Both the position numbers and the translations under genes were made by a program. DNA of 64,000 nucleotides. It comes from Comamonadaceae bacterium (GTDB lineage Bacteria > Pseudomonadota > Gammaproteobacteria > Burkholderiales > Burkholderiaceae_C). The notes beneath the pieces are model-generated. The model was given only the letters and a program-made list of their open reading frames with translations, was not told where the DNA came from and made no database searches. This document shows, one piece after another, positions 14,795 to 34,902 of this stretch. Every line of letters begins with the position of its first letter. The stretch's first letter is position 1. The stretch covers positions 1 through 64,000 of the forward strand of contig JAECRA010000010.1 in the NCBI GenBank assembly GCA_015999985.1, given 5' to 3'.

Positions 14795-14806
14795 TGGTGA
14801 CGTCTT

Positions 14807-15901
14807 TCAAGCAAATGCCACGAGGTTGGGACGAGGCTGAACCTGTATCGAAGGAAAGTCGCCGCAAGCTGAGCAACGGTTGTTGCCCCATGCATGCACA
14901 CCTTGGTCGCTGAGCGCCAAAACATGCCCGACTCCAGCAGACAGCTGCGTGACGCGGCGCAGGCCGGCCAGGCGCACTGGGCGTGCAGAAGCCGAAGGCG
15001 CTTCGGGACCCAATTGCCCCAGCCCGTTCCAACCCCAGGCGAAAACATCGCCATGAACTGAGGTGGCTACCGTGTAGAACATCCCGCCGTTGATCTGGGC
15101 GACCGGAAACCGCGTTCCTACGCGGGTGGGGCGCGTGAGATGGCGTGCATTGACATCTCCGGCTTGCCCGTGGTGGTTGGAGCCCCATGCCCAGAGCCTA
15201 GCGGCTTCGTCGACCGCAAGGCTATGGGTGTCGCCAGCCGCAATGCGCCTTATGCGCGCGGGTAGGTCCAGTTTGCGAGGCAAGGCTTTTTCCAGCAGAT
15301 CCCCCTGGCCCAGCTGTCCCGCAGCGTTGGCACCCCAGGTCCATACGTTGCCCTTGCGATCCAGCGCCATGACATGGCTATGGCCAGCAGCCAGCAAGGC
15401 AATGGGAGGCAGCGCTTCAATCCGCGCGGGCAGAGCAACCAGCACTTCACTGACGCGCCCCAACTGTCCTTGCACACGCATCCCCCAAGACCAGACGGCA
15501 CCGTCCGCATACATCGCGATGGTTGCTGATTCAGTCTGCACGACCTGTGTGGGCGACGCAGGCACACCCGCGATGGGTGCGCGCTGTATACCGTTTTCAG
15601 GCGAGACCACCGGACGACAAGACAATACCTGTCCTTCCCGACGTACAGCGACCGTGTCGGCATGGCCGTCAGCTACCAGGGCGAATGGCAGGCTTGCGGG
15701 ATTCAAGCGCTGCGGCACAGGCTGCGCATACCGGTTATGACCGATCTCCGTGGGGTTGGATAGACACAAGTCACTGGGGTAGCCTGGAGGCAACTTGGCG
15801 CCCAGTACCTTGACGCTTCCCCAGCCCCACGCTTGCCCACTGCTGTCAAGTGCGACGGAGCGGTCTCGCCCGGCGCTGACCTGTTCGATCTTTATCGTCA
15901 T
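14807..15901 (-). CDS. RCC1-repeat protein
   Basis: Repeats such as HVMALDRKGNVWTWGANAAGQLGQGD, HSLAVDEAARLWAWGSNHHGQAGD, YTVATSVHGDVFAWGWNGLGQLG; start set at MTIKIEQVSAGRD. Confidence 0.88.
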   Translation of the reverse strand: MTIKIEQVSAGRDRSVALDSSGQAWGWGSVKVLGAKLPPGYPSDLCLSNPTEIGHNRYAQPVPQRLNPASLPFALVADGHADTVAVRREGQVLSCRPVVSPENGIQRAPIAGVPASPTQVVQTESATIAMYADGAVWSWGMRVQGQLGRVSEVLVALPARIEALPPIALLAAGHSHVMALDRKGNVWTWGANAAGQLGQGDLLEKALPRKLDLPARIRRIAAGDTHSLAVDEAARLWAWGSNHHGQAGDVNARHLTRPTRVGTRFPVAQINGGMFYTVATSVHGDVFAWGWNGLGQLGPEAPSASARPVRLAGLRRVTQLSAGVGHVLALSDQGVHAWGNNRCSACGDFPSIQVQPRPNLVAFA

Positions 15902-15923
15902 GATCTGCCATCCTTCTGTACGG

Positions 15924-15937
15924 GATGCAATTGCATC
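15924..15937. promoter_or_regulatory. Perfect 14-bp palindrome upstream of the RCC1 gene
   Basis: GATGCAATTGCATC; differs at one position from 5411-5424 GATGCTATTGCATC. Confidence 0.45.
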
Positions 15938-16371
15938 TCGATGTAACGGATTTTGACAGTAATAGCTCTTGTGATGTGAGGTTTGGTGGCGCGTTGAAAA
16001 CCAATTGCTTACAAATTTGTGCAAGAGTGCCTGAGCAAACAGACATGGTCTACAAAGCTGGCCTCTCCGGGAGCCGCGCCCTGACCGCCAAGGCGCGCGG
16101 CTTTCCACCCACAACGGGGACCGGCGTCCCGCTTGAGTGTATGCCGATGTCGCGTTCTTACGCAGCCTTGCTCAGAACTTTGCGGTCTGTGCCTTGCCCT
16201 GTTCACGAACGCCTTGATCTTACTTTGCTCAGGTATTTACGGGATAGCACACTAGGCCATGGTGCCGTCTTGCAGCGACGCCACGGCCCTGGGATATCTG
16301 AAATCCGAGTTAACGCGGTTCGTCTGAAAGCGCTGGTATGGTCCTGCGGGACTGCTGTTAGGCTAGCGGCA

Positions 16372-16928: not shown

Positions 16929-17133
16929 AAGTCACTGCACTATGCCAAAAACCTTCACCCCATGCGCTGTCACTGGAAACAGTGCCATGCTTGCGGAGAT
17001 TGAGTGCTTTGATTCCGGCGACACATTGTTTCCAAACTGGAGAAAGTCTTGTTCTAGTTTGGTGGTTTTAAACACCCTCGTGTCGGCGCAAACTACGTCT
17101 TACGGAGCCGGCCACTAGCCTTCCAAGCCAAAA

Positions 17134-17185
17134 GCCTCCTCCGCGATGAGTCCGAAAAGTAAAGCGGATTCATTGAAGAGGAGGC
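17134..17185 (+). ncRNA. Structured 5'UTR hairpin (copy 1)
   Basis: GCCTCCTC-cgcgatgag-TCCG-aaaagtaaag-CGGA-ttcattgaa-GAGGAGGC nested stems, 51 nt before the start codon. Confidence 0.5.
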
Positions 17186-17236
17186 CGCCTGTTGGGCAGT
17201 CTCGCTGGACCAAAGATTCACTCAAAGGAAAAGATC

Positions 17237-17539
17237 ATGCAAGTTAAAAAAATCGCCCTCGCTTCCCTGTTCGCCGTGGTTCTGTCTGGTAACGCTTTTG
17301 CAGCGCAACCTGCGTCTGGGGAAGGCCCTCTGTTTCTGAACGAAGCCTCGGGAGTGAGCACATTGACTCGCGAAGCCGTGCGTCAGCAAGCCATTGCCAC
17401 CCCGCCTGCTACAGATGCCTATAACGCATTCGCAGTCGATACCTCTGTGCATGGAGATGTCACCCGTGCCGAAGTGCGTGAGTCAACTCGTGATGCCATT
17501 GCCCATGGCTTCCAAGTGAAAAGCGGCGAATTTGCCTAA
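17237..17539 (+). CDS. Small secreted protein, DUF4148-like (copy 1)
   Basis: Signal peptide MQVKKIALASLFAVVLSGNAFAA; LTREAVR and VTRAEVR motifs. Confidence 0.8.
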   Translation: MQVKKIALASLFAVVLSGNAFAAQPASGEGPLFLNEASGVSTLTREAVRQQAIATPPATDAYNAFAVDTSVHGDVTRAEVRESTRDAIAHGFQVKSGEFA

Positions 17540-17576
17540 GGGCACCTGAAGCGGCCTGCAACGAAGCCGCGCAGAC

Positions 17577-17613
17577 CAAAAGAAACGAGATGCTTGTCAT
17601 CTCGTTTCTTTTT
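17577..17613 (+). terminator. Rho-independent terminator of small secreted protein copy 1
   Basis: aaaagaaacgagatg-cttgt-catctcgtttcttttt. Confidence 0.88.
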
Positions 17614-18462: not shown

Positions 18463-18938
18463 GGCGTGAACAGCTTTGAAAACAGTTTAAGGATGGACTC
18501 AAACGCATGGAGATGGACCTCTCGCTTTCGCCGTTGATCCCTTGAATAGCGATGCCTGAAGCGCACCGGTACGTCGGGTACCTCCTTTTTCCTTAATCCG
18601 AGGAAGTCGCTTAGTTCTAAAGCTTGCGATGATGACATTTGCGAACTGAATCGCATAATTTCTTACAAAATATGCGGTCCTATTGTGTATGGACGGTTGC
18701 TTTAAATAACATAGCAAACATTCGTTTGCGGTGGACGTTCTGAAGCATTATTTAAGCCCTAGATAATCGAATCGGTTTCGCTCTAGTCCTAGCTCGCTTC
18801 ACTATGGAGCAAGCCAGATGCATTGAACTTCCGTATCCTGGATTTGGCCTTGTCGCAACCGTAGTTGAGCAGGCAGGCCGGGTGTGCAGCAAGCGCACCG
18901 ATCACGCTATACAGCAGAACAACACCAGGGAGTTCGAG

Positions 18939-20291
18939 ATGTCATACCTTTCAATAAGCGGAGTGAGTCACCCTGTGAAACGCGTGCGCGCCACTTTCAC
19001 CAGCTTGGCCGTGGCGATGGGTGCCATGTGCCTTGCGTTGCCAGCGCACGCGGCCGTGCCAGCCGCGGAGCGCCAGGTGCTGATTGACCTCTACAACGGC
19101 ACGGCGGGTGATGGCTGGAGCACCAGCACAGGCTGGAAGACAGCTGGCAATTTCAGCGCACCTGGCACCGAGTGCACGTGGTATGGCGTGACCTGTGATG
19201 CCGCCGGCAACCGGGTCACGCGGATTATGATGAGTTCCAACGAACTGACGGGCTCGCTTCCTGCGACTCTGAACACGCTAACGGCACTGGAAATCATCTC
19301 GATTCAGGACAACCAGATCAATGGCTCCATTCCGAGTCTCACCGGACTGACCGAGCTGACTATATTCAGTGCCGGCCTCAATCAACTGACAGGCGTCATT
19401 CCCAGCTTCACCGGATTGACTGCGCTCGAGTATTTTTCCGTTTCCGTCAATCAGCTGAGTGGGCCCATCCCCAGCGTGAGTGGCCTGTCGATGCTGCGGT
19501 CCCTCTACATCGACAACAACCAACTCAGTGGGCCCATTCCCAGTCTAGGCGGGCTGCCGGCGTTGGAATCCTTGCGCGTCGAAAACAACCAATTGAGTGG
19601 CACGCCGCCGGCTGCACCCGCCTCGTTGCTGCCAGGTGGCACCGTCCTGTGCCCCAACTTCCTCCACACCCCGTCCCCAACCGACGCGGCCTGGAACACC
19701 GCACGAAACGGCACATGGTCCAGCGGCTGTACGCCAGGTTACCTGGTCAGCACCGCGACAGGCTCGGGCGGGCGCATAGGGCCGCCCCAAGGTGTGCAAG
19801 CCGGGCTGACGTCCGCCGTCGTGGTCACACCGAACCCCAATTACATCGTTGACGTCGTCTTCAGCACCTGCGGCGGTTCGCTCGCCGGCAACACCTTCAC
19901 TACCGGCCCCGTCAACGCCGACTGCACTGTCAGCGCCTATTTCAAGATTGCACCGGGGGCCATCATGCCGACGGTGTTCGGCACCCCGCCCAATGCAGGT
20001 GATGCGAGTTGCACGCCGGAAATGCCGGGGGCTAGTTCAACCTGCACGGCCACGCCTGCACCCGGGTTCCGGCTGCTGCGCATCGAAGGCTGCGGGGGCA
20101 CGCCCGGTTCCACCAGCCCGTACACCACGGCCCCCATGACCGGTGCGTGCACGGTGTCCGTGACCTTCCAAGCTGTAACCGCAGCGGTTGAACCCACACC
20201 CGTGCCCACGCTGAGTGAATGGGCGTTGATCGCGTTGGGCCTCCTTCTGGGCGGTTTAGGTGTGCGACGGGCTCAACGACAAGCGGCCTGA
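18939..20291 (+). CDS. Leucine-rich-repeat surface protein with IPTL-CTERM sorting domain
   Basis: Signal peptide; CTWYGVTCD, then LRRs NQLSGPIPSVSGLSMLRSLYIDNNQLSGPIPSLGGLPALESL; C-term VPTLSEWALIALGLLLGGLGVRRAQRQ. Confidence 0.9.
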   Translation: MSYLSISGVSHPVKRVRATFTSLAVAMGAMCLALPAHAAVPAAERQVLIDLYNGTAGDGWSTSTGWKTAGNFSAPGTECTWYGVTCDAAGNRVTRIMMSSNELTGSLPATLNTLTALEIISIQDNQINGSIPSLTGLTELTIFSAGLNQLTGVIPSFTGLTALEYFSVSVNQLSGPIPSVSGLSMLRSLYIDNNQLSGPIPSLGGLPALESLRVENNQLSGTPPAAPASLLPGGTVLCPNFLHTPSPTDAAWNTARNGTWSSGCTPGYLVSTATGSGGRIGPPQGVQAGLTSAVVVTPNPNYIVDVVFSTCGGSLAGNTFTTGPVNADCTVSAYFKIAPGAIMPTVFGTPPNAGDASCTPEMPGASSTCTATPAPGFRLLRIEGCGGTPGSTSPYTTAPMTGACTVSVTFQAVTAAVEPTPVPTLSEWALIALGLLLGGLGVRRAQRQAA

Positions 20292-20888: not shown

Positions 20889-22112
20889 ATGAACTCTTCT
20901 TTTGATCGCTCACTGCCAACTTCGCTTCGCATTCGGCGCCCTTTGGTGAGTTCCTTGGTGCTGGTAGGGCTCTTGAGCGCCCATGGTGCGTGGGCCGCCA
21001 CATGGAATATTAACTTTGCCCCCAAGCAAACGACAGGCACGCCCGCCGAGCCGGTGTTCAGCTGGACGGCGCCAGATGCCAACACCATGTTTGGCACCGT
21101 CATTGATTGCGTTGGCGGCGTTATCTCAGCTCCACCAGGTCCCGGCATGGCTGTCTACGGGTTGGACGGTCCTCCCATCCATCGAGCTTTTGTTCAGTTT
21201 GCAAACGTTTATTCGGCGCCATCCAATGTCGCTGTAACGGTAACACCTGATACCCCCGGCGGCGCGGTCAATTGCACGCTCGATACTGTTCCGACGAGCT
21301 ACAGCCCAGGCTCAGGCAGCGCTCCTCAGTACAACATTCATGCCAGCATCCGCGATGGCTGGGTGCACGGCATCTTCGCCAACGAGGATCCATCAGGCTG
21401 GCAGTTGGCGTTCTCGCCGACCAACACGGGAACAACAAGCAACACCCTATTTTTAGACCCAACCGTTGGCGGTCCTGCAATCGGCTCCCAGATAAGCTCC
21501 GGCCCTATAACTGATGGCGGGCCCGTCACAACGAATCTGTTCATGAATGGCAAGACATCGTCTGCCACGGTCGAGTATGAGTTGACCCAACCACAACCGA
21601 CCGACACCACCATTACATTCACTGTAGAAGCCGATCTGCAAGCCTACGGCACACAATATGACCCTGCCACGGGCGGCTATCAGCAGCCCGAATATACAAG
21701 CCCGAAGACGGTGACCGTCACAATTCCTGCAGGATCTACCACCGTACAGGTGTCTATCCCGGATATCGTGCCCGGCTCGCAGGTCACCATTGCGCCAGTG
21801 AGTCACAATGGCTTCAACATTGTAAACAGCCCCATTCTCATCAAAACCACGCCACTCCCGGTGGCCACAACGACAGAACCCACATCTCTCACTAATTTGG
21901 TGCCGCCGGGCGAATCAGGGGTGTTTACTCAGACCAGTCCCACCAACGTCATTGACTTCAAGGTGATACTGGACAAACCCGTTGTCCAGCCCCCAGAACC
22001 CAAGCCGCCGACTGCTGTCCCTACCGTCAATGAGTGGGGCCTGGGTCTGCTGGGCGCTTTGCTGGCTGGTTTCGCAGTTCTGAGGCGGCGCTCGTTTACG
22101 CGCCGGGGCTAA
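20889..22112 (+). CDS. Secreted protein with IPTL-CTERM sorting domain
   Basis: Signal peptide LLSAHGAWA; C-term VPTVNEWGLGLLGALLAGFAVLRRRSFTRRG. Confidence 0.85.
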   Translation: MNSSFDRSLPTSLRIRRPLVSSLVLVGLLSAHGAWAATWNINFAPKQTTGTPAEPVFSWTAPDANTMFGTVIDCVGGVISAPPGPGMAVYGLDGPPIHRAFVQFANVYSAPSNVAVTVTPDTPGGAVNCTLDTVPTSYSPGSGSAPQYNIHASIRDGWVHGIFANEDPSGWQLAFSPTNTGTTSNTLFLDPTVGGPAIGSQISSGPITDGGPVTTNLFMNGKTSSATVEYELTQPQPTDTTITFTVEADLQAYGTQYDPATGGYQQPEYTSPKTVTVTIPAGSTTVQVSIPDIVPGSQVTIAPVSHNGFNIVNSPILIKTTPLPVATTTEPTSLTNLVPPGESGVFTQTSPTNVIDFKVILDKPVVQPPEPKPPTAVPTVNEWGLGLLGALLAGFAVLRRRSFTRRG

Positions 22113-22174: not shown

Positions 22175-22429
22175 TTGATCATGACCACCAGCCTGCTGCG
22201 CGCCAAGACTCTGCTCTCCCATTGCTTGCTGATTCCAGTCGAGCACATTGACGACGATGCGGACGTGGGCGATCTGCGCGATGTGGACAGTCTGATGTTT
22301 GAGGGCATCGTGATCGAGATTGAGAATGCCACCGGAACTCCAGTGGATGTGATGGATTTACTGCAACTCAGAACCGTCCGTGACGTGGCCAAGATTCTGG
22401 ATGGCCAGTCCTTGAACATAACGAACTGA
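22175..22429 (+). CDS. Acyl carrier protein-like protein
   Basis: 84 aa, DSL phosphopantetheine motif in RDVDSLMFEGIVIEIENATGTPVDVMDLLQLRTVRDVAKIL. Confidence 0.8.
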   Translation: MIMTTSLLRAKTLLSHCLLIPVEHIDDDADVGDLRDVDSLMFEGIVIEIENATGTPVDVMDLLQLRTVRDVAKILDGQSLNITN

Positions 22430-22446
22430 CATCGTCACCTTCGTGG

Positions 22447-23703
22447 ATGGATCCGTCCGATATCTGCAATGAACTGTATCGCCTCGCCCGTACTCGGCCA
22501 GGCGAGACTCTGCTGGATCATCACAGCGGCCGCAGGATCTGGGTGGTGCAGAACCCGCAAGACGCCCATTTGATCCTTAAGGCCAATGCGGGCAACTGGC
22601 CCAAGCATATGGCCTGGATGCGCCAGACCCTCGGACCTTCGCGCATGTCCGAGAACCATGACGCATGGACTTCCCGCAGGCAGTTGACGCAGCCGCACCT
22701 CAATCACTATGACGTGGACAAAACGGTTGATGCCTCACGCAGGGCCTTGCGCGAAGCGCTCCCCCAATTGATCGCGCAGACGGCCATCAGCACGCTGCCC
22801 GATCACCTGCTGCGCACCATGACTCTGCAGGTCCTCTCGGAAGTGCTTTTCGATATCGACTTTCGACAGACAGGCATTGACCCGCAACATCTGTTTCGCC
22901 TGTTGGAGCTTAGCGCGCAGTACGCTTTTGTGCCTGCCGGCGGTCTGACTGGTGATACGCGGCGGCAACACCTGAGTCTGTTGAATGCGGCGAAGGCCCA
23001 GCTCATGCAGGACCTGCGCGTGTTTCGTAGCGCGGAATATGCCTCCAAGCCTGTCATCCAGGAGATGTTGGCTGCCGAGGCTTCCAGCCGCCATCAAACC
23101 GACCGGTTTATTCTGGAGCAGGAGCTGATCACCCTGTTGGCAACCGGCTCAGAGACCAGCGCCAGCACCTTTGGCTGGGCCTGCCACCTGCTGGCACAGC
23201 ATCTTGACGTGCAGGACCAGCTACGCGATGAAGCACGTACTGCAGGCGCTGTATCCACGTTGATGGATGATTTCCTCGGCGAAACCATGCGGCTGTTTCC
23301 CGCCAATCCCATCCTTGCCCGTTACGCGCTGACCAGTGACCGCTTGAGTGCGGGGCAGGTGTTGCCTGGCGACGTGGCCCTCGTATCGCTGGTGGGCTTG
23401 CAAACACAGGAATCTTCACGGGAGCATCCATGGCAGCTCGATCTGTCCACGTCCCGAGCTCTGCCCAGTCGCGCGGAGCGCGGCTTCGGGACCGCCTTTG
23501 GGATGGGAGAGAGGGTGTGCGGAGGAAGGCTTTTCGCTATCACTGAAATGCGCACGTTGTTGCAGGAATTGCTGTTGCAAGCTCGGGTTCTCCCCACTGC
23601 CAACGAACCTCTGGAGCAACCGTTGGACATGCAGTGGTGCTCGCTCATGGTCAGGCTCGGCGGTCATCGCGTTCACATTCAACCGCTGCTGCCTCATTCA
23701 TGA
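22447..23703 (+). CDS. Cytochrome P450
   Basis: I-helix ATGSETSAS, ExxR GETMRLFP, heme loop FGMGERVCGGR. Confidence 0.94.
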   Translation: MDPSDICNELYRLARTRPGETLLDHHSGRRIWVVQNPQDAHLILKANAGNWPKHMAWMRQTLGPSRMSENHDAWTSRRQLTQPHLNHYDVDKTVDASRRALREALPQLIAQTAISTLPDHLLRTMTLQVLSEVLFDIDFRQTGIDPQHLFRLLELSAQYAFVPAGGLTGDTRRQHLSLLNAAKAQLMQDLRVFRSAEYASKPVIQEMLAAEASSRHQTDRFILEQELITLLATGSETSASTFGWACHLLAQHLDVQDQLRDEARTAGAVSTLMDDFLGETMRLFPANPILARYALTSDRLSAGQVLPGDVALVSLVGLQTQESSREHPWQLDLSTSRALPSRAERGFGTAFGMGERVCGGRLFAITEMRTLLQELLLQARVLPTANEPLEQPLDMQWCSLMVRLGGHRVHIQPLLPHS

Positions 23704-24452
23704 CTTCGCACCTCCAGCCTCTTTCCGCCGATCAGCATCTGGGCCTTGGGCTGCGTCCCGCCAGCAATTGGGCTTTTTGCAAGACGCGGGATGCCGTTCC
23801 CATTGCCTTGTCTGAATTCGCGGACATGGCAGGGTGGCTCCCCATCGTATTTTCCGCCGGACCGGCGCCACTGCCGCTGGCCGTGCTGGGCACTCAGCAC
23901 GGCAAAAATGATTTCCTGGATACTTCCTGCCAATGGCCTGCGCACCATGAGCCTCCCACCGCACTGAAGCTCCATCCATTCTCCTTGGGTGTTGACGCTG
24001 CAGATGCCAAGAGGACTATCGTGATGGTGGATTTGGCGGACACTCGCCTGGTTCCCCTGGAAGAAGATGAAGCCGCGAAGCCGCTCTTTACTTTTGATGG
24101 CAAGCCATCACCAACTCTGTCCTCGATTACCCAGCGACTGGGAGCACATGAATTTGCGCTGAAAGAGGCTTCCGCCCTGGGTCTGGCCCTGCAGCAAAGC
24201 GGCCTGCTGGAAGATATGCATGCAGATATCCGTACACCCGATGGCACCACCCATAGAACTCGCACGTTCCGGAGCGTGAGCGGGTCGAAGTTTCGAAATT
24301 TACCGACCTCTGAACTGGAACGCTGGTTCCGCCAAGGCTGGACAGATGCCATCGCGCTGCACCTGGCCAGTCTCAGGCGCTGGGTCCAGCTGTTTGAAAG
24401 GCATCAGCTCAATATCACGGTCTCAGCCTCTGCTTCGAATGCAAATGACTGA
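23700..24452 (+). CDS. SapC-like family protein
   Basis: VPIALSEFADMAGWLPIVFSAGPAPLPLAVLGTQHGKNDFLDTSCQWPAHHEP...HPFSLG; start overlaps the P450 stop (ATGA). Confidence 0.75.
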   Translation: MTSHLQPLSADQHLGLGLRPASNWAFCKTRDAVPIALSEFADMAGWLPIVFSAGPAPLPLAVLGTQHGKNDFLDTSCQWPAHHEPPTALKLHPFSLGVDAADAKRTIVMVDLADTRLVPLEEDEAAKPLFTFDGKPSPTLSSITQRLGAHEFALKEASALGLALQQSGLLEDMHADIRTPDGTTHRTRTFRSVSGSKFRNLPTSELERWFRQGWTDAIALHLASLRRWVQLFERHQLNITVSASASNAND

Positions 24453-26067
24453 AGCGGGCTCAGTGCGCCCGCTGATTCTCAGCCTGGCTGAGGCCCTGGA
24501 GCACGCTGCGGCCAGTCGGACGGGTTTACGCATCTTCGACGGCAAGGGCGCATTGGCAGCGCAGGCAAGCTACTTGGAGCTGTTTGTGCAGGCGCGGGCA
24601 CGGGCAACGCAATTGCGTTGCCTCCCCCGGACAGGACTGATGCCGCCAGTGGTCGGCCTGATAGCCCACACGCACCTGTCGTTCATAGTCAACTTCATGG
24701 CCTGCCAGTGCGCTGGCCTTCTCCCGTGTCCAATACCGCCGCCCACCGTGGCTCTGGGCATCGAGACTTATGTACAACGCGTCAGGCGCATGTTGTCAGC
24801 CGTGCAGGCTAAGGCACTGCTGCTCGATGACACCCATGCTCCATTACAAAGCCATTTCGAGCGTTCCGCAGAGCCGGAAATCAAGGGCCTGTCTTTGATG
24901 ACAACGCGCTCTTTGCCAACTGCCGATGAGACTGTGGATTTGCGGCCACTTCAAGGCAATGAGGGCGCCTACATTCAGTTTTCGTCCGGCACCACAAGCG
25001 CTCCCAAGGGCATAGAAATATCGCAACGTGCGATATGCCACAACCTGAACGGCATTCTGCATGCGGGCCTCTGCATCCAACCTGGTGATCGCGCGTTTTC
25101 ATGGCTGCCGCTCTACCACGACATGGGCTTGGTGGGTTTTCTGCTCGCGCCAATCATGGGCGCCGTGCCGCTGGACTTGCTCCCTCCGCAGGTCTTTGCG
25201 CGCAGGCCTCAACTTTGGCCCAAGCTTATGGCGGAACTGCAAAGCACTATCTGTTTTGCTCCCAGTTTTGCCTGGAGACTTGCCGCAGACAAAACGCCAC
25301 CTGAAGAGGCTGAGGGTATTCGCTTGAATCTGCGCGTGGCAGGCGTCGGGGGCGACGTTGTACGCATGCACGACCTGGATCGGTTTGCGGAGCGGTTTGG
25401 AGCCAGTGGCTTCTCGGTCAGGCAGTTTCAGCCTTGCTATGGCCTGGCCGAAGCCACGCTTGCCGTCAGTATGGGACCGGTCCGTACGGACGAGGAGGGC
25501 AAGCTTGCAAGCGGAGAACCCTTACCCGGATGGGAGGTTCGAATTGTTGATGAAACCGGTGCGGTGCTGTCCACACGGCAGGCCGGCCGCATCCAGATTC
25601 GAGGCCTCGCATTGATGACTGGATACTGGCAAGGCGGTCACCTCTCGCCCGTGCAGCCAGACGAATGGTTCCTGACCGAAGATCTGGGCTACCTTACGCC
25701 CACAGGCGAACTGGTGGTGACCGGTCGGCTGCAATCGCTGCTGGTCTTGCGTGGGAGTAATGTCCACGCAGAGGCCATAGAGGACGCTGTGTGCGCCGCT
25801 TTGCACCTGTCCCATGGCACGGTGCTGGCCTACCAAGAAATTCCAGAGCAGCCCTTATCCACCGGACTGGTTGTCTTGGTCGAGTGCTCATTGCAGGACG
25901 CAGAGCAGCGCGAGCAATGGATGGTGACCGCACGAAAAGCTGCATTCCACGTGAGCAGGGACGCTGCCGAAATCCGGCTGGTCCCGCCGCGCACGGTGAA
26001 ACTGACCACCTCCGGAAAGATTGCGCGGCAGACTACCTTAGACCATGTCCGTAAAGTCCATGACTGA
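24445..26067 (+). CDS. Fatty-acyl-AMP ligase (FAAL-type adenylating enzyme)
   Basis: QFSSGTTSAPKGIEIS, SWLPLYHDMGLVGFLLAP, YGLAEATLAVS, TEDLGYLTPTGELVVTGR; overlaps the SapC-like stop. Confidence 0.92.
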   Translation: MTEAGSVRPLILSLAEALEHAAASRTGLRIFDGKGALAAQASYLELFVQARARATQLRCLPRTGLMPPVVGLIAHTHLSFIVNFMACQCAGLLPCPIPPPTVALGIETYVQRVRRMLSAVQAKALLLDDTHAPLQSHFERSAEPEIKGLSLMTTRSLPTADETVDLRPLQGNEGAYIQFSSGTTSAPKGIEISQRAICHNLNGILHAGLCIQPGDRAFSWLPLYHDMGLVGFLLAPIMGAVPLDLLPPQVFARRPQLWPKLMAELQSTICFAPSFAWRLAADKTPPEEAEGIRLNLRVAGVGGDVVRMHDLDRFAERFGASGFSVRQFQPCYGLAEATLAVSMGPVRTDEEGKLASGEPLPGWEVRIVDETGAVLSTRQAGRIQIRGLALMTGYWQGGHLSPVQPDEWFLTEDLGYLTPTGELVVTGRLQSLLVLRGSNVHAEAIEDAVCAALHLSHGTVLAYQEIPEQPLSTGLVVLVECSLQDAEQREQWMVTARKAAFHVSRDAAEIRLVPPRTVKLTTSGKIARQTTLDHVRKVHD

Positions 26068-27280
26068 TCCCGTTACATCCACAGGACCGGGGGGCCCAGC
26101 CTTGCCGCAACTCGTCCGTCTGCTGGCCCAGGACGCGCCAACCGACTGGTCATGGATAGGTCCTGACGCCCGGGCCAGCCTGAACACCGCTGTGCCTATG
26201 GCAGAGGCTGATCAAGTACCCGCACTTCTGACACGTCCAGGCGTACAGATGTGGGGCGTCTATGTGGCCGATCGGTTGCAGGGCGTCTACCTCTGCAGTG
26301 ATCATGCTCAGCATCATGTGACACGTGTTTCATACGCGCCTGCCCCACAGGCATCTGGCCTCTGGCTGCTTGAGCACACCTTTGGGCAGCTGACGGAAAC
26401 TCTGTTGTCTGCTGGTGCGCAAAAAGTATCGGTTCATCTGTTTGCAGGAATGATCCGGCGGCTGTGGCCCTTGTTCCGCCTGAACAAGCGGTTCTTTCTC
26501 GAAGGCCGACTGCGCCAGGAGTGGCAGCCTGCTCTGCAACGCAACGAAGACGTGTTCATCATCTCCGCTCTGGCACAGGAAAGTATGCGGCCGGAACCCG
26601 GAACATTGTGGTTGAACACCCATGCAAGAACTTCAGGTCAGCGCTTCTTCAGCAGTTGGGCCACTTCTCAAGCTAGCGCCCCGTTGCCCGAAACCAATGC
26701 GCGGGGCTCTACGCTTGTCGACACCGCAGAATATCAATTGCGCACACTTGCCGCCAAGGACGTTAACGAGACCCTGGTTGGCTTGCTGAACTCCCCCCAG
26801 TTGGTGGGAAGTATGAATCTGCCGCGCTTTACATTCAACTTACCCAGTTCACGGGCGCTGCTGGCCAGCTTCGACCGGAACTTCAATCAGTTCATCGGCA
26901 TATTCAAACGAACGGATGGCGAACTTATCGGTTTCTACACCGTCCTGGTCAACGAGCGTGCGCGACAGGCCCATCTAGCCCTGGGCATCCATTCCAGTGA
27001 AGCTGCAGCGTCGCGCGTCATGGTGGACACCATCACGCCGTTGACGGACAGTTATTTCGAGCGCTTTGCAATTCAGAAGATCATTGGCAATGTGCTTGTT
27101 TCGAACCGCCGGATGCTGCTTAGTCTTTCGCACAACTACACGTTCCTGTTCGAAGCCGTGTTGCGTCAAGAATGCGTCAGTGACCAAGGCCGACTGGATG
27201 TGGTGGTGTTCTCCACATTCCGAGACTTAGCTCTACGTCCCAGGTTAGGGAGACTTACACCCGTGCGAGGCGAGGCGTAA
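26045..27280 (+). CDS. Putative double-GNAT-like acyltransferase
   Basis: Two halves with similar motifs: FFLEGRLRQEW...EDVFIISALAQE and FLFEAVLRQEC...LDVVVFSTFRD; true start may be 26060. Confidence 0.6.
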   Translation: MSVKSMTDPVTSTGPGGPALPQLVRLLAQDAPTDWSWIGPDARASLNTAVPMAEADQVPALLTRPGVQMWGVYVADRLQGVYLCSDHAQHHVTRVSYAPAPQASGLWLLEHTFGQLTETLLSAGAQKVSVHLFAGMIRRLWPLFRLNKRFFLEGRLRQEWQPALQRNEDVFIISALAQESMRPEPGTLWLNTHARTSGQRFFSSWATSQASAPLPETNARGSTLVDTAEYQLRTLAAKDVNETLVGLLNSPQLVGSMNLPRFTFNLPSSRALLASFDRNFNQFIGIFKRTDGELIGFYTVLVNERARQAHLALGIHSSEAAASRVMVDTITPLTDSYFERFAIQKIIGNVLVSNRRMLLSLSHNYTFLFEAVLRQECVSDQGRLDVVVFSTFRDLALRPRLGRLTPVRGEA

Positions 27281-27453
27281 ATCAAAAAAATCGAACGACT
27301 GCTAAGAGATGTTTGAGGCGAACTTGATCCGGCATCACGAAAAGATTGTTTCCAATCTGGAGAAAGACTTGTTCTGAGTTGGTGGTTTTAAACACCCCCT
27401 TGTAGGCGCAAACTACGTCTTACGGAGCCGGCCACTAGCCTTCCAAGCCAAAA

Positions 27454-27505
27454 GCCTCCTCCGCGATGAGTCCGAAAAGTAAAGCGGATTCATTGAAGAG
27501 GAGGC
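27454..27505 (+). ncRNA. Structured 5'UTR hairpin (copy 2)
   Basis: Same sequence as 17134-17185. Confidence 0.5.
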
Positions 27506-27556
27506 CGCCTGTTGGGCAGTCTCGCTGGACCAAAGATTCACTCAAAGGAAAAGATC

Positions 27557-27859
27557 ATGCAAGTTAAAAAAATCGCCCTCGCTTCCCTGTTCGCCGTGGT
27601 TCTGTCTGGTAACGCTTTTGCAGCGCAACCTGCGTCTGGGGAAGGCCCTCTGTTTCTGAACGAAGCCTCGGGAGTGAGCACATTGACTCGCGAAGCCGTG
27701 CGTCAGCAAGCCATTGCCACCCCGCCTGCTACAGATGCCTATAACGCATTCGCAGTCGATACCTCTGTGCATGGAGATGTCACCCGTGCCGAAGTGCGTG
27801 AGTCAACTCGTGATGCCATTGCCCATGGCTTCCAAGTGAAAAGCGGCGAATTTGCCTAA
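27557..27859 (+). CDS. Small secreted protein, DUF4148-like (copy 2)
   Basis: Identical to 17237..17539. Confidence 0.8.
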   Translation: MQVKKIALASLFAVVLSGNAFAAQPASGEGPLFLNEASGVSTLTREAVRQQAIATPPATDAYNAFAVDTSVHGDVTRAEVRESTRDAIAHGFQVKSGEFA

Positions 27860-27896
27860 GGGCACCTGAAGCGGCCTGCAACGAAGCCGCGCAGAC

Positions 27897-27931
27897 CAAA
27901 AGAAACGAGATGCTTGTCATCTCGTTTTTTC
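27897..27931 (+). terminator. Terminator of small secreted protein copy 2
   Basis: gaaacgagatg-cttgt-catctcgttttttc; diverges from copy 1 in the descending arm. Confidence 0.75.
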
Positions 27932-27968
27932 TTGCTCCGCAGATCGTGCTCGGACCTGCAGGACTTCA

Positions 27969-28190: not shown

Positions 28191-29645
28191 TCAGGAGTCA
28201 TCGGGTCTGGGCCACCCTCCGGCCAGTGCCTTGTAGAGAGCAATGCTCGATCGCACCGCATTGATCTGGCTCTGCGCTTTGGCATCTTGTGCGGCCAGTT
28301 GCTCCCGTTGAGCGTCCAGCACTTCATACAGGCTCAGAGTGCCGCCCCTGTACATGCGCTGTGCCAACGCTTGCGCCTCGTCCCGCTGCATCGAAGTAGC
28401 GTCCAACAGGACCCATTCCTCCCTGGCTCTATGGGTTTGAACCAGTGCGTTCTCGGTTTCCTCCAGGGCGAGCAGAACACCTTGCTGATATTGGGCAAGG
28501 GCCTGGGCTGCGCCGGCTTCGCTTGCAGCGATGCGAGCTCGGACGCGGCCGACGTCGAGAAACGACCAGTCAATGCCTAGAAAGGCGCTGTGGTTGGCGG
28601 ATCTACCAGTGAATAAGTCACCACCTGCCAGCGTAAAGCTCCCAAGCACTCCGCCAAGAGATATGCGGGGGAACAAATCTGCCGTCGCTACGCCAATTCG
28701 CGCAGTGGCTGCGTGCAGCCGCGCTTCGGCTGCTGCCAAGTCCGGGCGCCTGCGTAAGAGTTCAGCGGGTGTGCCTGGCGTCAGGCTGGGGGGCATTGTC
28801 GGCAAAGATCCGGTGCTATCCAGCTGAGCGATCAGGTCTCCGGGCGAGAGGCCTAGCAGCACTGCAAGGCGATGTTCAAGCGTGGCGACCTGCAGATGCA
28901 ATGAGGGAAGGCGCGCCTGCGTGCTCATCAGTTGCGCTCGAGCGCGCGTCACGTCCAGTGCGGTGCCGCTGCCAGCAGCCCATCGGCGCTCGACCAGCCG
29001 AGAGGTATCGCGCTGATTCTGTTCGGCCGCTTGCGCGATGCGAAGACGCCATTGCGCGCCGCGCAGCTGGGTATAGGTGTCGGCCACCTGCGCTGCAATC
29101 AGGACCTGCAAGGCAGCGACGTCTGCGTGAGAGGCTTGAACCTCAGCGCGCTGAATTTCGATGGCTCGCTTCAAGCGCCCTACCCAATCGATTTCCCAGG
29201 TGGCGGCGATGCCTGCACTGTAAGCGCGGGTAGATTGCGCCTGACCCGGACTGACCTGGTCTATGCTGAGCTTTTGCTGCGTAGCATCTCCACTCATCTT
29301 CACCGTGGGCAGACGATCCACTTGCGAATGCACCAGCAGAGCTTGCGCAGATTCAAGTCTTGCCATGGCCGCACCTACATCGTGATTGCCCTGCAACGCT
29401 TGCTGTACCAAACGCGTAAGTTGCGCATCGCCAAACTGACGCCAGAAATCCGCTTCGCGAACGTCCGTGGACGTCAATGTCGAGCGGTCTTGCCCGAGTC
29501 CTTCCTCCTGTCGCGCAAATTGCGCGGGCACTGTGCTGTCAGCCGGGGGACGCTGGAAATCTGGTCCAACGGACGCGCACCCGGAAATCAAGAGGGTGCA
29601 GGCGAGCGCTGCGACGCTAAGGGATGAGGTCTTAAACATGGGCAT
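28191..29645 (-). CDS. RND efflux outer membrane lipoprotein (NodT/OprM family)
   Basis: LLISGCASVGPDFQRPPA; ELLRRRPDLAAAEARLHAATARIGVATADLFPRISLGG. Confidence 0.93.
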   Translation of the reverse strand: MPMFKTSSLSVAALACTLLISGCASVGPDFQRPPADSTVPAQFARQEEGLGQDRSTLTSTDVREADFWRQFGDAQLTRLVQQALQGNHDVGAAMARLESAQALLVHSQVDRLPTVKMSGDATQQKLSIDQVSPGQAQSTRAYSAGIAATWEIDWVGRLKRAIEIQRAEVQASHADVAALQVLIAAQVADTYTQLRGAQWRLRIAQAAEQNQRDTSRLVERRWAAGSGTALDVTRARAQLMSTQARLPSLHLQVATLEHRLAVLLGLSPGDLIAQLDSTGSLPTMPPSLTPGTPAELLRRRPDLAAAEARLHAATARIGVATADLFPRISLGGVLGSFTLAGGDLFTGRSANHSAFLGIDWSFLDVGRVRARIAASEAGAAQALAQYQQGVLLALEETENALVQTHRAREEWVLLDATSMQRDEAQALAQRMYRGGTLSLYEVLDAQREQLAAQDAKAQSQINAVRSSIALYKALAGGWPRPDDS

Positions 29646-32600
29646 GCTCGTTTGAAAGGCCAGGTTGCGGTGCCCTTGGCGTTGGGGTATTCGAGGAATG
29701 CACCCGAAGTTGCGTGCCGCTCAGCTTGCGCAGGGTTACGTAAAACACAGGGGTGAGAAACAGGCCGAAAAGCGTGACACCCAACATGCCGGAGAAAACC
29801 GTGACGCCGGTGGCCGCGCGCACTTCCGAACCAGCGCCCGTCCCTATGAGCAAGGGCAGGGCGCCCGCGATGAAAGCGATCGATGTCATCACGATAGGAC
29901 GCAGCCGCAGTCGGCAAGCCTCGCGCGCGGCGTCTTGAATGCTCGCTCCCTTCATCTCGAGTTCGCGGGCGAACTCCACGATCAGAATGGCGTTCTTGCA
30001 CGCAAGACCCATCAGTACCACTAGCCCAACCTGTACGAAGACGTTGTTGTCGCCACCTGAGAGCCAGACGCCGAACAGTGCGGCACAGATGCACACCGGA
30101 ACGATCAGGATCACCGCGAGCGGCATGGTCCAGCTCTCATACAGTGCCGCGAGCACCAGAAATGCCAGCATCACCGCCAGTGCAAACATCACGACTGCTG
30201 CGTTGCTCTGCTCGACTTGCTGGTAACTCATGTCTGTCCATGCCAACTCGATTCCCGCAGGCAGGGTCTTGTCTGCGATTTTGCGCAGTTGAGCGAGGGT
30301 CTCTGATGAAGACATGACGCGCGGATCTGCATCACCGATCAAATCTGCCGCCGGAAAGCCGTTGAAGCGCAATACGGGGTCCGGGCCGTAGCTGGGAGTG
30401 ACCGTCACCATGGAGGCGAGCGGAACCATCTCACCGCGATGATTGCGCGTCTGCAGTTTGCCTATGTCCTCTGCCGACTGGCGGTAGTCGGCATCGGCCT
30501 GCAGCATGACCCGGTACACGCGACCAAAGGCGTTGAAGTCATTCACGTAGATGGAGCCCAGATAGCCCTGCAAAGTCTGAAATAAATCGTTGAGCGCAAC
30601 CCCTTGCGCCTTGGCCTTGGTGCGGTCGACTTTCACTTCCAGTTGCGGAATATTGGACTGGTAGGAGCTGACTGGATAGTGCATACCCGGCGTCTTGGCT
30701 ATCTCTGCCTGAAACGCATTGAGTGCCTGTTGCAAGGCCGCATAGCCCAAGCCCGCGCGGTCTTCCAGAAACAGTGAATAGCCAGAGCCATTTCCCAAGC
30801 CTTCAATGGGTGGCGGCATCAGCGCGTAGCCAAACCCTCCGTCCATGCCAGCCAGTTTGGCGTTAAGTTCGGCATTGATTTCTGTCGCACTGCGTTGGCG
30901 TTCCGAAAATGGCTTGAGGATGACGTACGCGCTGGTCAGATTGGGCGTGTTGGTGCCTTGCAAGGCATTCAGACCAGCAAATGCGGGGACGGAGTCCACG
31001 TCTTCGATAGACAGCGCATGGCGCGTGAGTTCCTGGGTGACTTCGTCGGTGCGGCCGAGCGAGGACCCTTCAGGCAGCTTGGCGCCTGCAAATAGGTAAA
31101 GCTTGTCTTGCATGGGAATGAATCCGCCCGGCACGTTGTTGAAAAGAAGTGCGGTGCCCCCCAGCAGCGCTACGTACACCAGGAACACGAGACCACGCAG
31201 CTTGAACGAACGACCGACGGCGCGCTCATATCGATTCGCGCTCCTATCGAATGCTCGATTGAATCGTTTGAAGAACCAGCCGAACCCTGCATGCATGGCT
31301 CTGGTCAGCCCATCCGGCCGCGCCCCATGCCCCTGGAGAAGTTTCGCCGCGAGCGCTGGTGACAAGGTCAGAGAGTTGATGGCGGAAATGACCGTGGAGA
31401 TCGCAATCGTCACGGCAAACTGCTTGTAGAACTGGCCGGTGATGCCGTCCAGGAATGCCATGGGCACAAACACCGCGCACAACACCAATGCGATGGCAAT
31501 GATGGGACCGGACACCTCCTTCATGGCCAGGTGAGCCGCATCGCGCGGGGTGTGGCCTTTCTCAATGAAGCGCTCCACGTTCTCCACGACGACGATGGCA
31601 TCGTCCACCACGATGCCGATCGCAAGCACCAGCCCAAAAAGCGTTAGCGTGTTGATGGAGTATCCCAGCAGATAGAGCCACGCGAACGTGCCAACAATGG
31701 ACACGGGCACTGCCAGCAGCGGAATGATGGATGCGCGCCAGGTCTGCAAGAACACAAGCACGACCAATACCACGAGCACGACCGCCTCAATGAGGGTGGT
31801 TTGCACGGCCTTGATGGAATCGCGCACGAAGACGGTGGGGTCCCAGAGGTACTTGAATTGCGTGGCCTGAGGCAGATTCTGGCTCAGGCGATTGAGGGTG
31901 TCGTAGACCTTGTCGGCCACGCCCAAGGCGTTCGCACCTGGTGATAGAAAGATTCCAATGGCAGCCATGTTCTTGTTGTCGAACGAGGCACGCAGTGTGT
32001 AGTCGCTGGCACCCAGCTCAAGCCGCGCGACGTCAGACAGCCGAACCAACTGACCGTCGGCGCCTGCCTTGAGCACGATGTCGCCGAATTCCTCGGAGTT
32101 TTTCAGTCGGCCTTGTACATTGATCGATAGTAGTTTGTCCGTGCCCTTGGTGCTGGGCTCCGCGCCCAGTTGGCCGGCGGAGACCTGCACGTTCTGTTCA
32201 CGAATGGCTGCAATGATCTGATTGACTGTCAGTTGACGGGCTGCAGCCTTGTCCGGATCGAGCCATATACGCATGGCATAGTCACCGGAGCCGTATACAA
32301 CGACATCCCCGATCCCTGGTATGCGCGCCAGTGCATCCTTGACCTTCAAGCTGACGTAGTTGCGCAGGTACAGCGTGTCCAGCTTGTCATCGGAAGAAGC
32401 CAGGCCTACATACATCAGTGGTGTTGCTGACTGTTTCTGGGTTGTGATTCCGTACTGCCGCACTTCTTCAGGCAACCTGCTTTGGGCCTGGCTCACCCGG
32501 TTCTGCACGCGGACTGCGGCGGCATCGGGATCGGTGCCGTGACGAAAGGTTGCCACCACTTGCAGGCTTCCGTCCGATGCGGCAACGGACTTCATGTACA

Positions 32601-32832
32601 TCAGTCCTTCCACACCGTTGATGGATTCTTCCAGTGGGACAGCGACGGACTCTGCGATCTCCTTGGGGTTGGCCCCGGGATAGGTAGCGCGCACCACCAC
32701 GCTGGGCGGCACCACTTCCGGATATTCCCCCGTGGGCAGTTGGGGAATGGCGATCAGGCCGACGGAAAAAATGATGACCGACAGCACGATGGCGAAGATT
32801 GGCCGGTCTATGAAGAACTTGGAAAAACCCAT
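29632..32832 (-). CDS. RND efflux permease (HAE1 family)
   Basis: MGFSKFFIDRPIFAIVLSVIIFSVGLIAIPQLPTGEYPEVVPPSV; GIVVDDAIVVVENVER. Confidence 0.96.
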   Translation of the reverse strand: MGFSKFFIDRPIFAIVLSVIIFSVGLIAIPQLPTGEYPEVVPPSVVVRATYPGANPKEIAESVAVPLEESINGVEGLMYMKSVAASDGSLQVVATFRHGTDPDAAAVRVQNRVSQAQSRLPEEVRQYGITTQKQSATPLMYVGLASSDDKLDTLYLRNYVSLKVKDALARIPGIGDVVVYGSGDYAMRIWLDPDKAAARQLTVNQIIAAIREQNVQVSAGQLGAEPSTKGTDKLLSINVQGRLKNSEEFGDIVLKAGADGQLVRLSDVARLELGASDYTLRASFDNKNMAAIGIFLSPGANALGVADKVYDTLNRLSQNLPQATQFKYLWDPTVFVRDSIKAVQTTLIEAVVLVVLVVLVFLQTWRASIIPLLAVPVSIVGTFAWLYLLGYSINTLTLFGLVLAIGIVVDDAIVVVENVERFIEKGHTPRDAAHLAMKEVSGPIIAIALVLCAVFVPMAFLDGITGQFYKQFAVTIAISTVISAINSLTLSPALAAKLLQGHGARPDGLTRAMHAGFGWFFKRFNRAFDRSANRYERAVGRSFKLRGLVFLVYVALLGGTALLFNNVPGGFIPMQDKLYLFAGAKLPEGSSLGRTDEVTQELTRHALSIEDVDSVPAFAGLNALQGTNTPNLTSAYVILKPFSERQRSATEINAELNAKLAGMDGGFGYALMPPPIEGLGNGSGYSLFLEDRAGLGYAALQQALNAFQAEIAKTPGMHYPVSSYQSNIPQLEVKVDRTKAKAQGVALNDLFQTLQGYLGSIYVNDFNAFGRVYRVMLQADADYRQSAEDIGKLQTRNHRGEMVPLASMVTVTPSYGPDPVLRFNGFPAADLIGDADPRVMSSSETLAQLRKIADKTLPAGIELAWTDMSYQQVEQSNAAVVMFALAVMLAFLVLAALYESWTMPLAVILIVPVCICAALFGVWLSGGDNNVFVQVGLVVLMGLACKNAILIVEFARELEMKGASIQDAAREACRLRLRPIVMTSIAFIAGALPLLIGTGAGSEVRAATGVTVFSGMLGVTLFGLFLTPVFYVTLRKLSGTQLRVHSSNTPTPRAPQPGLSNEHAHV

Positions 32833-32841
32833 GACGACGTC

Positions 32842-34062
32842 CTACCGCTTGCCCGACAGGGCAACTTTTTCTTGTGCTTTTGGAGGCGCTGGTGCCGTTT
32901 CATCAGCGATGACTTTGGGCGCTATGGGCATGCCAGGGTAGTAAATGCGATGCATGCCAGTCACCACCAGTTGGTCACCGGCTTCGAGCCCTGATTCCAC
33001 AACACGCCGGCCTTCGAACATCCGCCCCAGTTTGAGCTCCCGCCGCTCTGCCCGGTTGTTCTCACCCACCACGTAGACGTAATTGCGATCCTGATCCGTG
33101 AGCACCGCCTTGTCGTCAATCAGCACCGCTTCAAATTCCGTTCGGCCCTGCATCTGCACACGCGCGAACATGCCCGGCGTGAAGAGTCCGTGATCATTTT
33201 TCATCGTAGCCCGCACACTGATGGTGCCGGTCTGCGGATCCAGACGGTTGTCGGTGAATCCCACCTGGCCGGTATGGGGGAATCCTTCGTCGTTGGCCAA
33301 CCCGACGCGAACCGCCATGGCTGCTCCGGTGCCGCTAGTGGAGCGCATGGCCTGCCTGTTGCGCAGCAAGCTTTGCTCGTCGGCATCGAAATAGACGTGG
33401 ACCGGATTTTGGGACACCACGGTGGACAACACGCTTTGATTGGCCTGTGCCAGGTTGCCGGTGGTCAGCAGGGCACGCCCTGCCAAGCCTGTGATGGGAG
33501 AACGGACTTCGGTAAAGCCCAGCTCGAGTTGAGCGCTTGTCACGGCCGCTTCTGCAGCGCTCACGTTGGCCACGGCCTGCGCCAGGCCACCGGAGCGGTT
33601 ATCTGCTTCCTCCGCGGAAATAGCGCGATCTGCCAGCAACTCGCGAGCCCGCAGATCCTGAGTCCTGGCCAAATTTGCAACGGCATTGGCGCGTTGCAAC
33701 TGAGATTGAGCGCTGGCCAAGGCGGCTTTGTAGGCGCGTGCGTCGATGGTGAACAGCAGTTGACCCTTGCGCACCACCTGGCCTTCGCGGAAATTCACGC
33801 TCTCTATGTATCCGTTCACGCGTGGGCGAATCTCCACTGATTCCTGCGCGGCAATGCGGCCATTGAAAGTGTCCCACTGCTGCACCTTACTCACTTGCAC
33901 AGGAGAAACATTGACCGGAGCCGGGGGCGACTCAGCTGATGAAGATCCCTCTTGTTTGCCGCCCTGGGCTTGTCCGCAGGCGGTTAACGTGAGCGGTAGC
34001 AGGGCGGCAGCGGTCAAAGCTGCCGCCCGCGTCCTCCAGCGCGAGTTGATGGTTGAACTCAT
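32842..34062 (-). CDS. RND efflux periplasmic adaptor
   Basis: LTACGQ lipobox; EIRPRVNGYIESVNFREGQVVRKGQLLFTIDARAYKAAL. Confidence 0.93.
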   Translation of the reverse strand: MSSTINSRWRTRAAALTAAALLPLTLTACGQAQGGKQEGSSSAESPPAPVNVSPVQVSKVQQWDTFNGRIAAQESVEIRPRVNGYIESVNFREGQVVRKGQLLFTIDARAYKAALASAQSQLQRANAVANLARTQDLRARELLADRAISAEEADNRSGGLAQAVANVSAAEAAVTSAQLELGFTEVRSPITGLAGRALLTTGNLAQANQSVLSTVVSQNPVHVYFDADEQSLLRNRQAMRSTSGTGAAMAVRVGLANDEGFPHTGQVGFTDNRLDPQTGTISVRATMKNDHGLFTPGMFARVQMQGRTEFEAVLIDDKAVLTDQDRNYVYVVGENNRAERRELKLGRMFEGRRVVESGLEAGDQLVVTGMHRIYYPGMPIAPKVIADETAPAPPKAQEKVALSGKR

Positions 34063-34191
34063 TTTGAAATTCCTTGTTGCGAAGGCGCGTGCTTGCTCGG
34101 CGCCGGTAGAAAAAACTCGCAACGAGGGTGATTTCAGCCATCGCGACAGACAGGCCTTCGCTTTACTCGTTGCCAAAGATGATTGTTCAAG

Positions 34192-34233: not shown

Positions 34234-34710
34234 ATGAACGCTAGGGATGATGAGCTGATGCTGATCGGAGCCATCGCGCAGCGCAGCGGCGTAAACGCCT
34301 CGGCCTTGCGGTATTACGAGTCACTTGGATTGATCGAATCTGTTCGCAGCACCGCAGGACATCGCCGCTATAGACGCTCCACCCTGCGCAGGGTGGCCTA
34401 CATCGTTTTCGCGCAACGCCTGGGCTTTCAACTCGAAGAAATCGCATCGCAACTGGATGGCTTATCGAAGCACCACGCACCTACCGGCGATGAGTGGAGC
34501 AGCCTGTCGCAGATCTGGACCAAGCGGGTTGATGAGCGGATTCAGGAACTTGTCCACCTGCGCAATAGCCTGGACAACTGCATCGGTTGCGGTTGCCTTT
34601 CCATGAAGGTATGCAAGGTTTTCAACCGGGAAGACCGCCTTGCCGAAAAAGGCGCCGGACCGAGGCTTTGGCTAGGTGACACGCCGACAGCTGGCGACGA
34701 CTGTCAATGA
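34234..34710 (+). CDS. soxR: Redox-sensitive MerR-family regulator SoxR
   Basis: MerR HTH RSGVNASALRYYESLGLIESVRSTAGHRRY; 2Fe-2S motif CIGCGCLSMKVC. Confidence 0.93.
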   Translation: MNARDDELMLIGAIAQRSGVNASALRYYESLGLIESVRSTAGHRRYRRSTLRRVAYIVFAQRLGFQLEEIASQLDGLSKHHAPTGDEWSSLSQIWTKRVDERIQELVHLRNSLDNCIGCGCLSMKVCKVFNREDRLAEKGAGPRLWLGDTPTAGDDCQ

Positions 34711-34826: not shown

Positions 34827-34902
34827 TGGTGCGGCTGGCGGGGATCGAACCCACGACCCTTGGCTTCGGAGGCCAATACTCTATCCACTGAGCTACAGCC
34901 GC
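34827..34902 (-). tRNA. tRNA-Arg (anticodon CCG)
   Basis: Reverse complement GCGGCTGTAGCTCAGTGGATAGAGTATTGGCCTCCGAAGCCAAGGGTCGTGGGTTCGATCCCCGCCAGCCGCACCA; loop CTCCGAA. Confidence 0.95.

Follow-up and report, generated by a model that had tools for sequence, protein, structure and literature searches.

The heptosyltransferases Aah and TibC are encoded beside an autotransporter, the passenger of which is modified before export, and the acyl-AMP ligase and acyl carrier protein (ACP) genes associated with exosortase A belong to a polysaccharide locus with XrtA. Acylation of a secreted protein is exemplified by CdiC, which attaches 3-hydroxydecanoate to a lysine of the type V-secreted CdiA, and acyl-ACP is the donor for the related RTX toxin acyltransferases (PMC8510554). 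The stretch of DNA analysed here (the window; 64,000 nucleotides, positions 1 to 64,000 of contig JAECRA010000010.1, Comamonadaceae bacterium assembly GCA_015999985.1) contains a block of genes encoding an ACP, a cytochrome P450, a SapC family protein, a fatty acyl-AMP ligase (FAAL)-type enzyme and a tandem GNAT-fold protein, preceded by the gene for an IPTL-CTERM surface protein. The module is best placed as a putative system that acylates exported proteins from acyl-ACP and has a donor pathway built for the purpose. The sequence-only reading of this DNA, which had picked out the block, allowed that the cluster might already have been described; no such description was found in the open-licence literature.

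As with Aah and TibC, the gene for a modifying enzyme would adjoin that of its autotransporter target in some of the related loci, but Aah and TibC add a sugar rather than a lipid and are unrelated enzymes. The exosortase A-associated genes likewise place an acyl-AMP ligase and an ACP near a C-terminal sorting system; the module, however, holds no exosortase, and one group of its relatives (group III, below) is found in genomes without detectable XrtH. The natural-product FAAL-ACP pairs (JamA, CylA, olefin synthase and others) also combine a stand-alone FAAL-type ligase with a small ACP and share the SWLPxYHDMGL motif and the pocket prolines. They differ from the module in that the window ligase has lost the FAAL-specific insertion, the partner is a surface protein, and no polyketide synthase or non-ribosomal peptide synthetase genes were seen among the listed open reading frames nearby, which were not tested exhaustively. 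The closest parallel is with CdiC and the toxin-activating acyltransferases (HlyC, ApxC and CyaC), the genes of which also adjoin that of a secreted surface or effector protein, and which transfer an acyl, often hydroxyacyl, group from ACP to a lysine as is proposed here, the CdiC target being type V-secreted (PMC8510554). Unlike these enzymes, the GNAT of the module is not matched by the HlyC family and is nearest to SpeG and RimL, and whereas they use housekeeping acyl-ACP the module brings its own ligase, ACP and P450.

The five enzyme and accessory genes are co-directional on the plus strand and tightly packed, as had been claimed. They encode the dedicated ACP (22181-22429, 82 amino acids; PF00550, E 5e-8), with its ATG at 22181 as in the relatives (the listed reading frame opens at a TTG at 22175); the P450 (22447-23703, 418 amino acids; PF00067, E 8e-22); the SapC family protein, taken as accessory (23700-24452, 250 amino acids; PF07277, E 7e-43); the FAAL-type ligase (24445-26067, possible start 24439, 540 amino acids; PF00501, E 1e-47); and the tandem GNAT-fold protein, the proposed acyltransferase (26060-27280, possible start 26045, 406 amino acids). 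The ACP stop and the P450 start are 17 nt apart, and the P450-SapC, SapC-ligase and ligase-GNAT junctions are short overlaps, the first of them an ATGA. All motifs reported earlier are present, namely DSL in the ACP, FGMGERVCGGR in the P450, and SSGTTSAPKG and SWLPLYHDMGL in the ligase. The block is not a chance arrangement, because the gene order is kept in three other genomes at 59-95% protein identity. The five genes are thus real, but the boundary first drawn around them was too short, as the gene at 20889-22112 (plus strand), which ends 68 nt upstream of the ACP ATG, belongs to the unit; it was overlooked because the region then singled out begins 63 bp past it. This gene encodes the proposed partner or substrate, a protein of 407 amino acids with an N-terminal signal peptide and a C-terminal AVPTVNEWGLGLLGALLAGFAVLRRR tail. 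A promoter and terminator scan gave no signal above shuffles, and none of the six proteins had a match to anti-phage defence in PADLOC.

Searches covered 401 genomes of the family, 399 of the order, 369 of the class and 398 of the phylum, and a scan of genome contigs with the GNAT returned only two named loci. The FAAL-ACP-P450-GNAT core was found at 10 loci in 9 genomes (7 Comamonadaceae and 2 of another gammaproteobacterial family). The GNAT sequence led to the module in Ottowia thiooxydans (84% identity), which shares its genus with the window genome, in G107 (63%) and in Comamonas sp. JUb58 (61%), with nearly the same gene order, and to further loci of the same family in G174 (two copies), G046 and G154; a profile of the GNAT C-terminal domain reached G975 and G1254, which belong to the other family of the same class. 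Conserved co-occurrence, the check proposed in the sequence-only reading, is borne out for the core, and the neighbourhood is not unique to this genome, because synteny is conserved in the 10 loci. The module is nonetheless rare and patchy and crosses families, so that it is not a trait of the Comamonadaceae. Weak GNAT matches in seven further genomes (G160, G280, G709, G559, G854, G1007 and G1709) are ordinary GNATs, with no FAAL, ACP or P450 within ~19-20 kb by tblastn, and no GNAT match was obtained in the plasmid collection. Pairwise identities sort the core enzymes alike into three groups (the GNAT was compared for the first seven loci only): group I comprises the window, O. thiooxydans, JUb58 and G107; group II, G174 twice and G046; and group III, G154, G975 and G1254.

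A surface-protein gene adjoins the enzymes in 10 of 10 loci, and three surface-protein architectures track the three enzyme groups. In group I the neighbour is an IPTL-CTERM protein. In group II it is a passenger with an autochaperone domain (AC_1, E 1e-15 to 7e-12), in which a hydrophobic C-terminal tail ending in RRR replaces the barrel. In group III it is an autotransporter. That of G975 is complete (PF03797, E 3e-62) and lies between two GNAT genes; the G1254 passenger, the C-terminus of which was judged by eye to be of the barrel type, is spread over two reading frames and truncated where the contig stops. G174 has two near-identical enzyme modules (L016 and L017) separated by ~240 kb. 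Each is paired with a different surface protein, and these passengers share 62% identity, with the greatest similarity in the direction of the C-terminus. The barrel-less passengers with a sorting-type tail (L016 11145-13799, L017 11326-14016 and L018 6598-9123) may record a switch of display system. The first reading named either an amine or a surface protein as recipient of the acyl group; the constant adjacency favours the latter, the chemistry being predicted. The association of the module with surface proteins has good support, and a functional link between them is likely.

The window protein scores above the model cut-offs for the IPTL-CTERM tail (PF18203, 33.1 vs 20.8 bits, E 5e-8; TIGR04174, 32.8 vs 20.5 bits). 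Orthologues occupy the same place in O. thiooxydans (77-78% identity), JUb58 (39%) and G107 (two copies, 47-52%, one on either side of the ACP gene). Full-length homologues were present in 2 of 111 relatives, which are the only two module-positive genomes among them, and two further genomes had a weak match to the C-terminal 150 residues only. A second IPTL-CTERM protein with plant-like leucine-rich repeats (18936-20291, plus strand; PF18203, E 6e-11; LRR_4, E 7e-14) is counted as a neighbour, and at most as a candidate member of the unit; O. thiooxydans has an equivalent of its C-terminal part alone. The window genome (G000) encodes 33 IPTL-CTERM tails in 4.3 Mb, nearly all of them far from the module. 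Given this number, and because the upstream protein is kept in place in three other genomes, the view that the two IPTL-CTERM neighbours had come together by chance was dropped. XrtH was detected in O. thiooxydans (G028), G107, G174 and G046 and not in G154, G975 or G1254; its presence tracks the tails, being detected in the complete genomes with sorting-type tails but not in the genomes with barrels. XrtH had no match in the window assembly, which is 79% complete; since the genome holds 33 tails, its sorting enzyme probably sits in the missing part.

The five IPTL-CTERM proteins of group I have exactly one invariant lysine, Lys222 in the window protein (codon 21552-21554), which lies in N-x-K-T or S-x-K-T and which, in one of the G107 proteins, is the sole lysine past the signal peptide. 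In the group II and III passengers, repeat ends bear motifs of the L-x-G-G-K type. K never occurs at this position in the TIGR04393 repeats of other autotransporters of G154 and G975, where the residue is mostly T, S, V, Q or A. By a loose pattern count, lysine occupies 15 of 116 sites in the cluster passengers vs 0 of 123 in other autotransporters of G154, G975 and G1254 (Fisher p 1e-5, the sequences not being independent). Lys222 and the L-x-G-G-K motifs are suggestive as candidate acceptors, short of proof.

The ligase is best matched among NCBIfam models by the fatty acyl-AMP ligase PRK09192 (E 3e-122), under the model cut-off (409 vs 600 bits), and among solved structures by 3pbk (E 1e-78), with the FAAL motifs aligned; these motifs are also conserved in the alignment of the relatives' ligases. 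Prolines aligned with P107 and P226 of EcFAAL (numbering read by offset), which belong to the alternative pantetheine pocket, are present, and these pocket prolines, P98 and P222, are invariant in the ligase alignment. The ACP has its phosphopantetheine site at D36-S37-L38, invariant across 9 homologues. The P450 has the heme motif, the ExxR motif (E279/R282) and the I-helix GSET, and Cys358 and the ExxR and I-helix residues are preserved across 9 homologues. A short-chain dehydrogenase is encoded in G154 (PF00106) and, by sequence reading only, in G046. SapC membership is secure (PF07277, 147 bits vs a cut-off of 28.9), but the gene is present at only 6 of 10 loci, being missing from G046, G154, G975 and G1254, so that SapC is not the core member it was taken for. 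Its AlphaFold model (pLDDT 46) was too poor for a fold search, and the sequence search found no solved relative.

The full-length GNAT-like protein has no Pfam or NCBIfam match, and so none to the HlyC family, although Acetyltransf_3 is recovered with its single-domain relatives (E 3e-8). Residues 32-179, in the N-terminal half, can be aligned on their own with the single GNAT domain of a relative (26%, E 3e-4), the AlphaFold model (pLDDT 68) has two GNAT-like folds in succession, and the Foldseek matches include SpeG, RimL and the tandem GNAT 2wpx. These lines of evidence agree with the dual GNAT first described, and the tandem arrangement is supported, best for the C-terminal half. The FeeM-type N-acyl amino acid synthases and LuxI-type synthases, to which the protein had been likened, also have a GNAT-related fold and acyl-ACP donors. 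No search bore out this kinship: there was no sequence match, neither enzyme was among the listed Foldseek matches, the nearest folds are SpeG/RimL-type acetyltransferases, and nothing in the module points to a small-molecule acceptor. The acyl-CoA pyrophosphate loop, Q/R-x-x-G-x-G/A, is replaced by A-x-x-R-x-M in the C-terminal domain when aligned to SpeG, an acetyl-CoA user with a Q-x-x-G-x-A loop, and is degenerate in the relatives too. Its loss would fit a carrier-protein donor, without amounting to proof.

From the protein families, their packing and co-inheritance, the constant adjacency of a surface gene and the candidate lysines, we infer the following substrates, steps and acceptor. 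The ligase would adenylate a free fatty acid and load it onto the module's own ACP, and the P450, with the short-chain dehydrogenase in some relatives, would oxidise the ACP-bound chain. The GNAT would then acylate the neighbouring surface protein with the oxidised chain, most likely while the protein is still in the cytoplasm and has yet to be exported by Sec, the acceptor probably being the epsilon-amino group of a particular lysine. Display would follow the protein's own route, either XrtH-type sorting of the IPTL-CTERM tail or the autotransporter barrel, and the custom lipid could anchor the protein or make it adhesive. Such a mechanism would resemble the action of CdiC and HlyC with different enzymes. 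Of the pathway first proposed (adenylation, ACP loading, P450 oxidation and GNAT transfer), the module and its synteny stand and the individual steps are still predictions from sequence. That this is a dedicated protein-acylation module, with its specific chemistry, falls just short of an even chance and is put forward tentatively. More tentative again is the fuller statement, that an oxidised acyl group is built on the module's own ACP and attached by a GNAT without recognisable sequence kinship to HlyC to lysines of exosortase-sorted or autotransported surface proteins, as a self-contained lipidation system of a new kind.

Several observations weigh against protein acylation. Both lysine signals may have structural causes, since the residues around the invariant lysine of group I are conserved in general and the group II and III passengers have a common ancestry. 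Between group I and the other two groups the surface proteins show neither homology nor a recognisable shared acceptor motif, the group II tails score under the IPTL-CTERM cut-off, and the neighbour in G154, an EprS-like autotransporter that is partial at the contig end, is divergently transcribed. The GNAT resembles SpeG and RimL rather than HlyC/CdiC or FeeM, and its donor could therefore be acetyl-CoA. SapC is unexplained by the proposed mechanism. The window ligase, for which the adenylate-forming core, motifs and pocket prolines uphold the FAAL assignment, departs from it in the FAAL-specific insertion, with 11 residues against 37 in the stretch of 3pbk taken as the insertion; the insertion is lost in group I and longer in G174, G154, G975 and G1254. 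CoA may accordingly serve as its acceptor, and its specificity for ACP is no more than likely. In known FAALs the insertion is the weaker CoA-rejection device and its deletion only weakly relaxes CoA rejection (PMC8460268).

The main rival to protein acylation is a small-molecule pathway, in which the GNAT would couple the oxidised chain of the acyl-ACP with an amine or amino acid. The product would be a secreted lipoamino acid or signal, which the surface protein would bind, carry or respond to. Acyl-ACP does serve as donor for the N-acyl amino acid and homoserine-lactone synthases of GNAT fold, and the nearest folds include enzymes of small amines (SpeG). FAAL-ACP pairs usually open natural-product pathways (PMC11837247). 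Such a pathway does not, however, predict a surface gene of three architectures across all loci, nor the divergence of the G174 surface proteins beside constant enzymes, and no conserved transporter, regulator or receptor was seen to accompany the module; it is an unlikely explanation, though one of some weight. The surface protein could instead receive a lipid anchor at its C-terminus, with the module making an amine-bearing lipid that XrtH joins to the cleaved IPTL-CTERM protein, as in archaeosortase products. ACP and acyl-AMP ligase genes lie beside exosortase A, as the TIGR030xx family names indicate, and groups I and II combine sorting-type tails with genomes that hold XrtH (not found in the incomplete window genome; JUb58 left out). 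Yet XrtH cannot be the general acceptor route, because group III adjoins autotransporters in genomes without detectable XrtH, and nearly all of the 33 tails in the window genome are remote from the module. A lipid anchor is accordingly a good deal more doubtful than a small molecule.

Two further explanations separate the GNAT or the surface protein from the lipid enzymes. The GNAT could be an acetyl-CoA-dependent acetyltransferase, acting for example on the N-terminus or a lysine of the surface protein, with FAAL, ACP and P450 making an unrelated lipid and the adjacency due to shared regulation. Its sequence and fold are indeed nearest to SpeG and RimL, and of the three GNAT copies in G154 one keeps GxG in the loop. 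Set against this are the degenerate Q/R-x-x-G-x-G/A loop, the presence of GNAT, FAAL, ACP and P450 together at all loci with identities that rank alike, and the stop/start overlaps that couple FAAL and GNAT in the window, which together make a separate acetyltransferase improbable. Adjacency might also have no functional meaning, a lipid operon having come to lie beside a surface protein by chance and been passed on by common descent of one transferred block. The patchy distribution, the flanking 589-nt direct repeats (described below), the occurrence of the module in distant families and the scant synteny with O. thiooxydans outside the block are what a mobile block would leave. It would not account for group I surface proteins that are not homologous to those of groups II and III, or for a surface protein that stays while gene order and orientation vary between groups, and it is the least probable of these explanations.

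The direct repeat occurs at 17024-17613 and 27345-27933, the copies being 98.3% identical and each carrying a small exported DUF4148-like protein (27557-27859 in the downstream, plus-strand copy, a neighbour outside the proposed mechanism). Together they bracket 10.3 kb containing both IPTL-CTERM genes and the whole module, a block that would be lost if the two recombined. In the 20 kb read of O. thiooxydans there is one copy only, on the downstream side of the module, and further, more distant copies are present on contigs C106 and C80. Just downstream, on the minus strand (28191-34176), is an RND efflux-type operon (outer membrane factor, inner membrane pump and membrane fusion protein, read from the open reading frames), followed by a MerR regulator (34234-34710), a tRNA-Arg (34827-34902) and a TetR regulator (34922-35554). 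On the other side, also on the minus strand, an RCC1-repeat protein (14807-16114) adjoins a multicopper oxidase (13089-15188); the listed frames overlap and the extent of one is uncertain.

The analysis names a candidate substrate and a candidate lysine, and O. thiooxydans DSM 14619 is a type strain available in culture; the module may also give SapC-family proteins a functional context. If protein acylation is the correct reading, acylation would be linked to IPTL-CTERM proteins, a class unmentioned in the top-ranked open-licence literature, and would extend from the housekeeping acyl-ACP used by HlyC and CdiC to a purpose-built lipid. The analysis suggests an undescribed way in which these bacteria put a custom lipid on their surface proteins.

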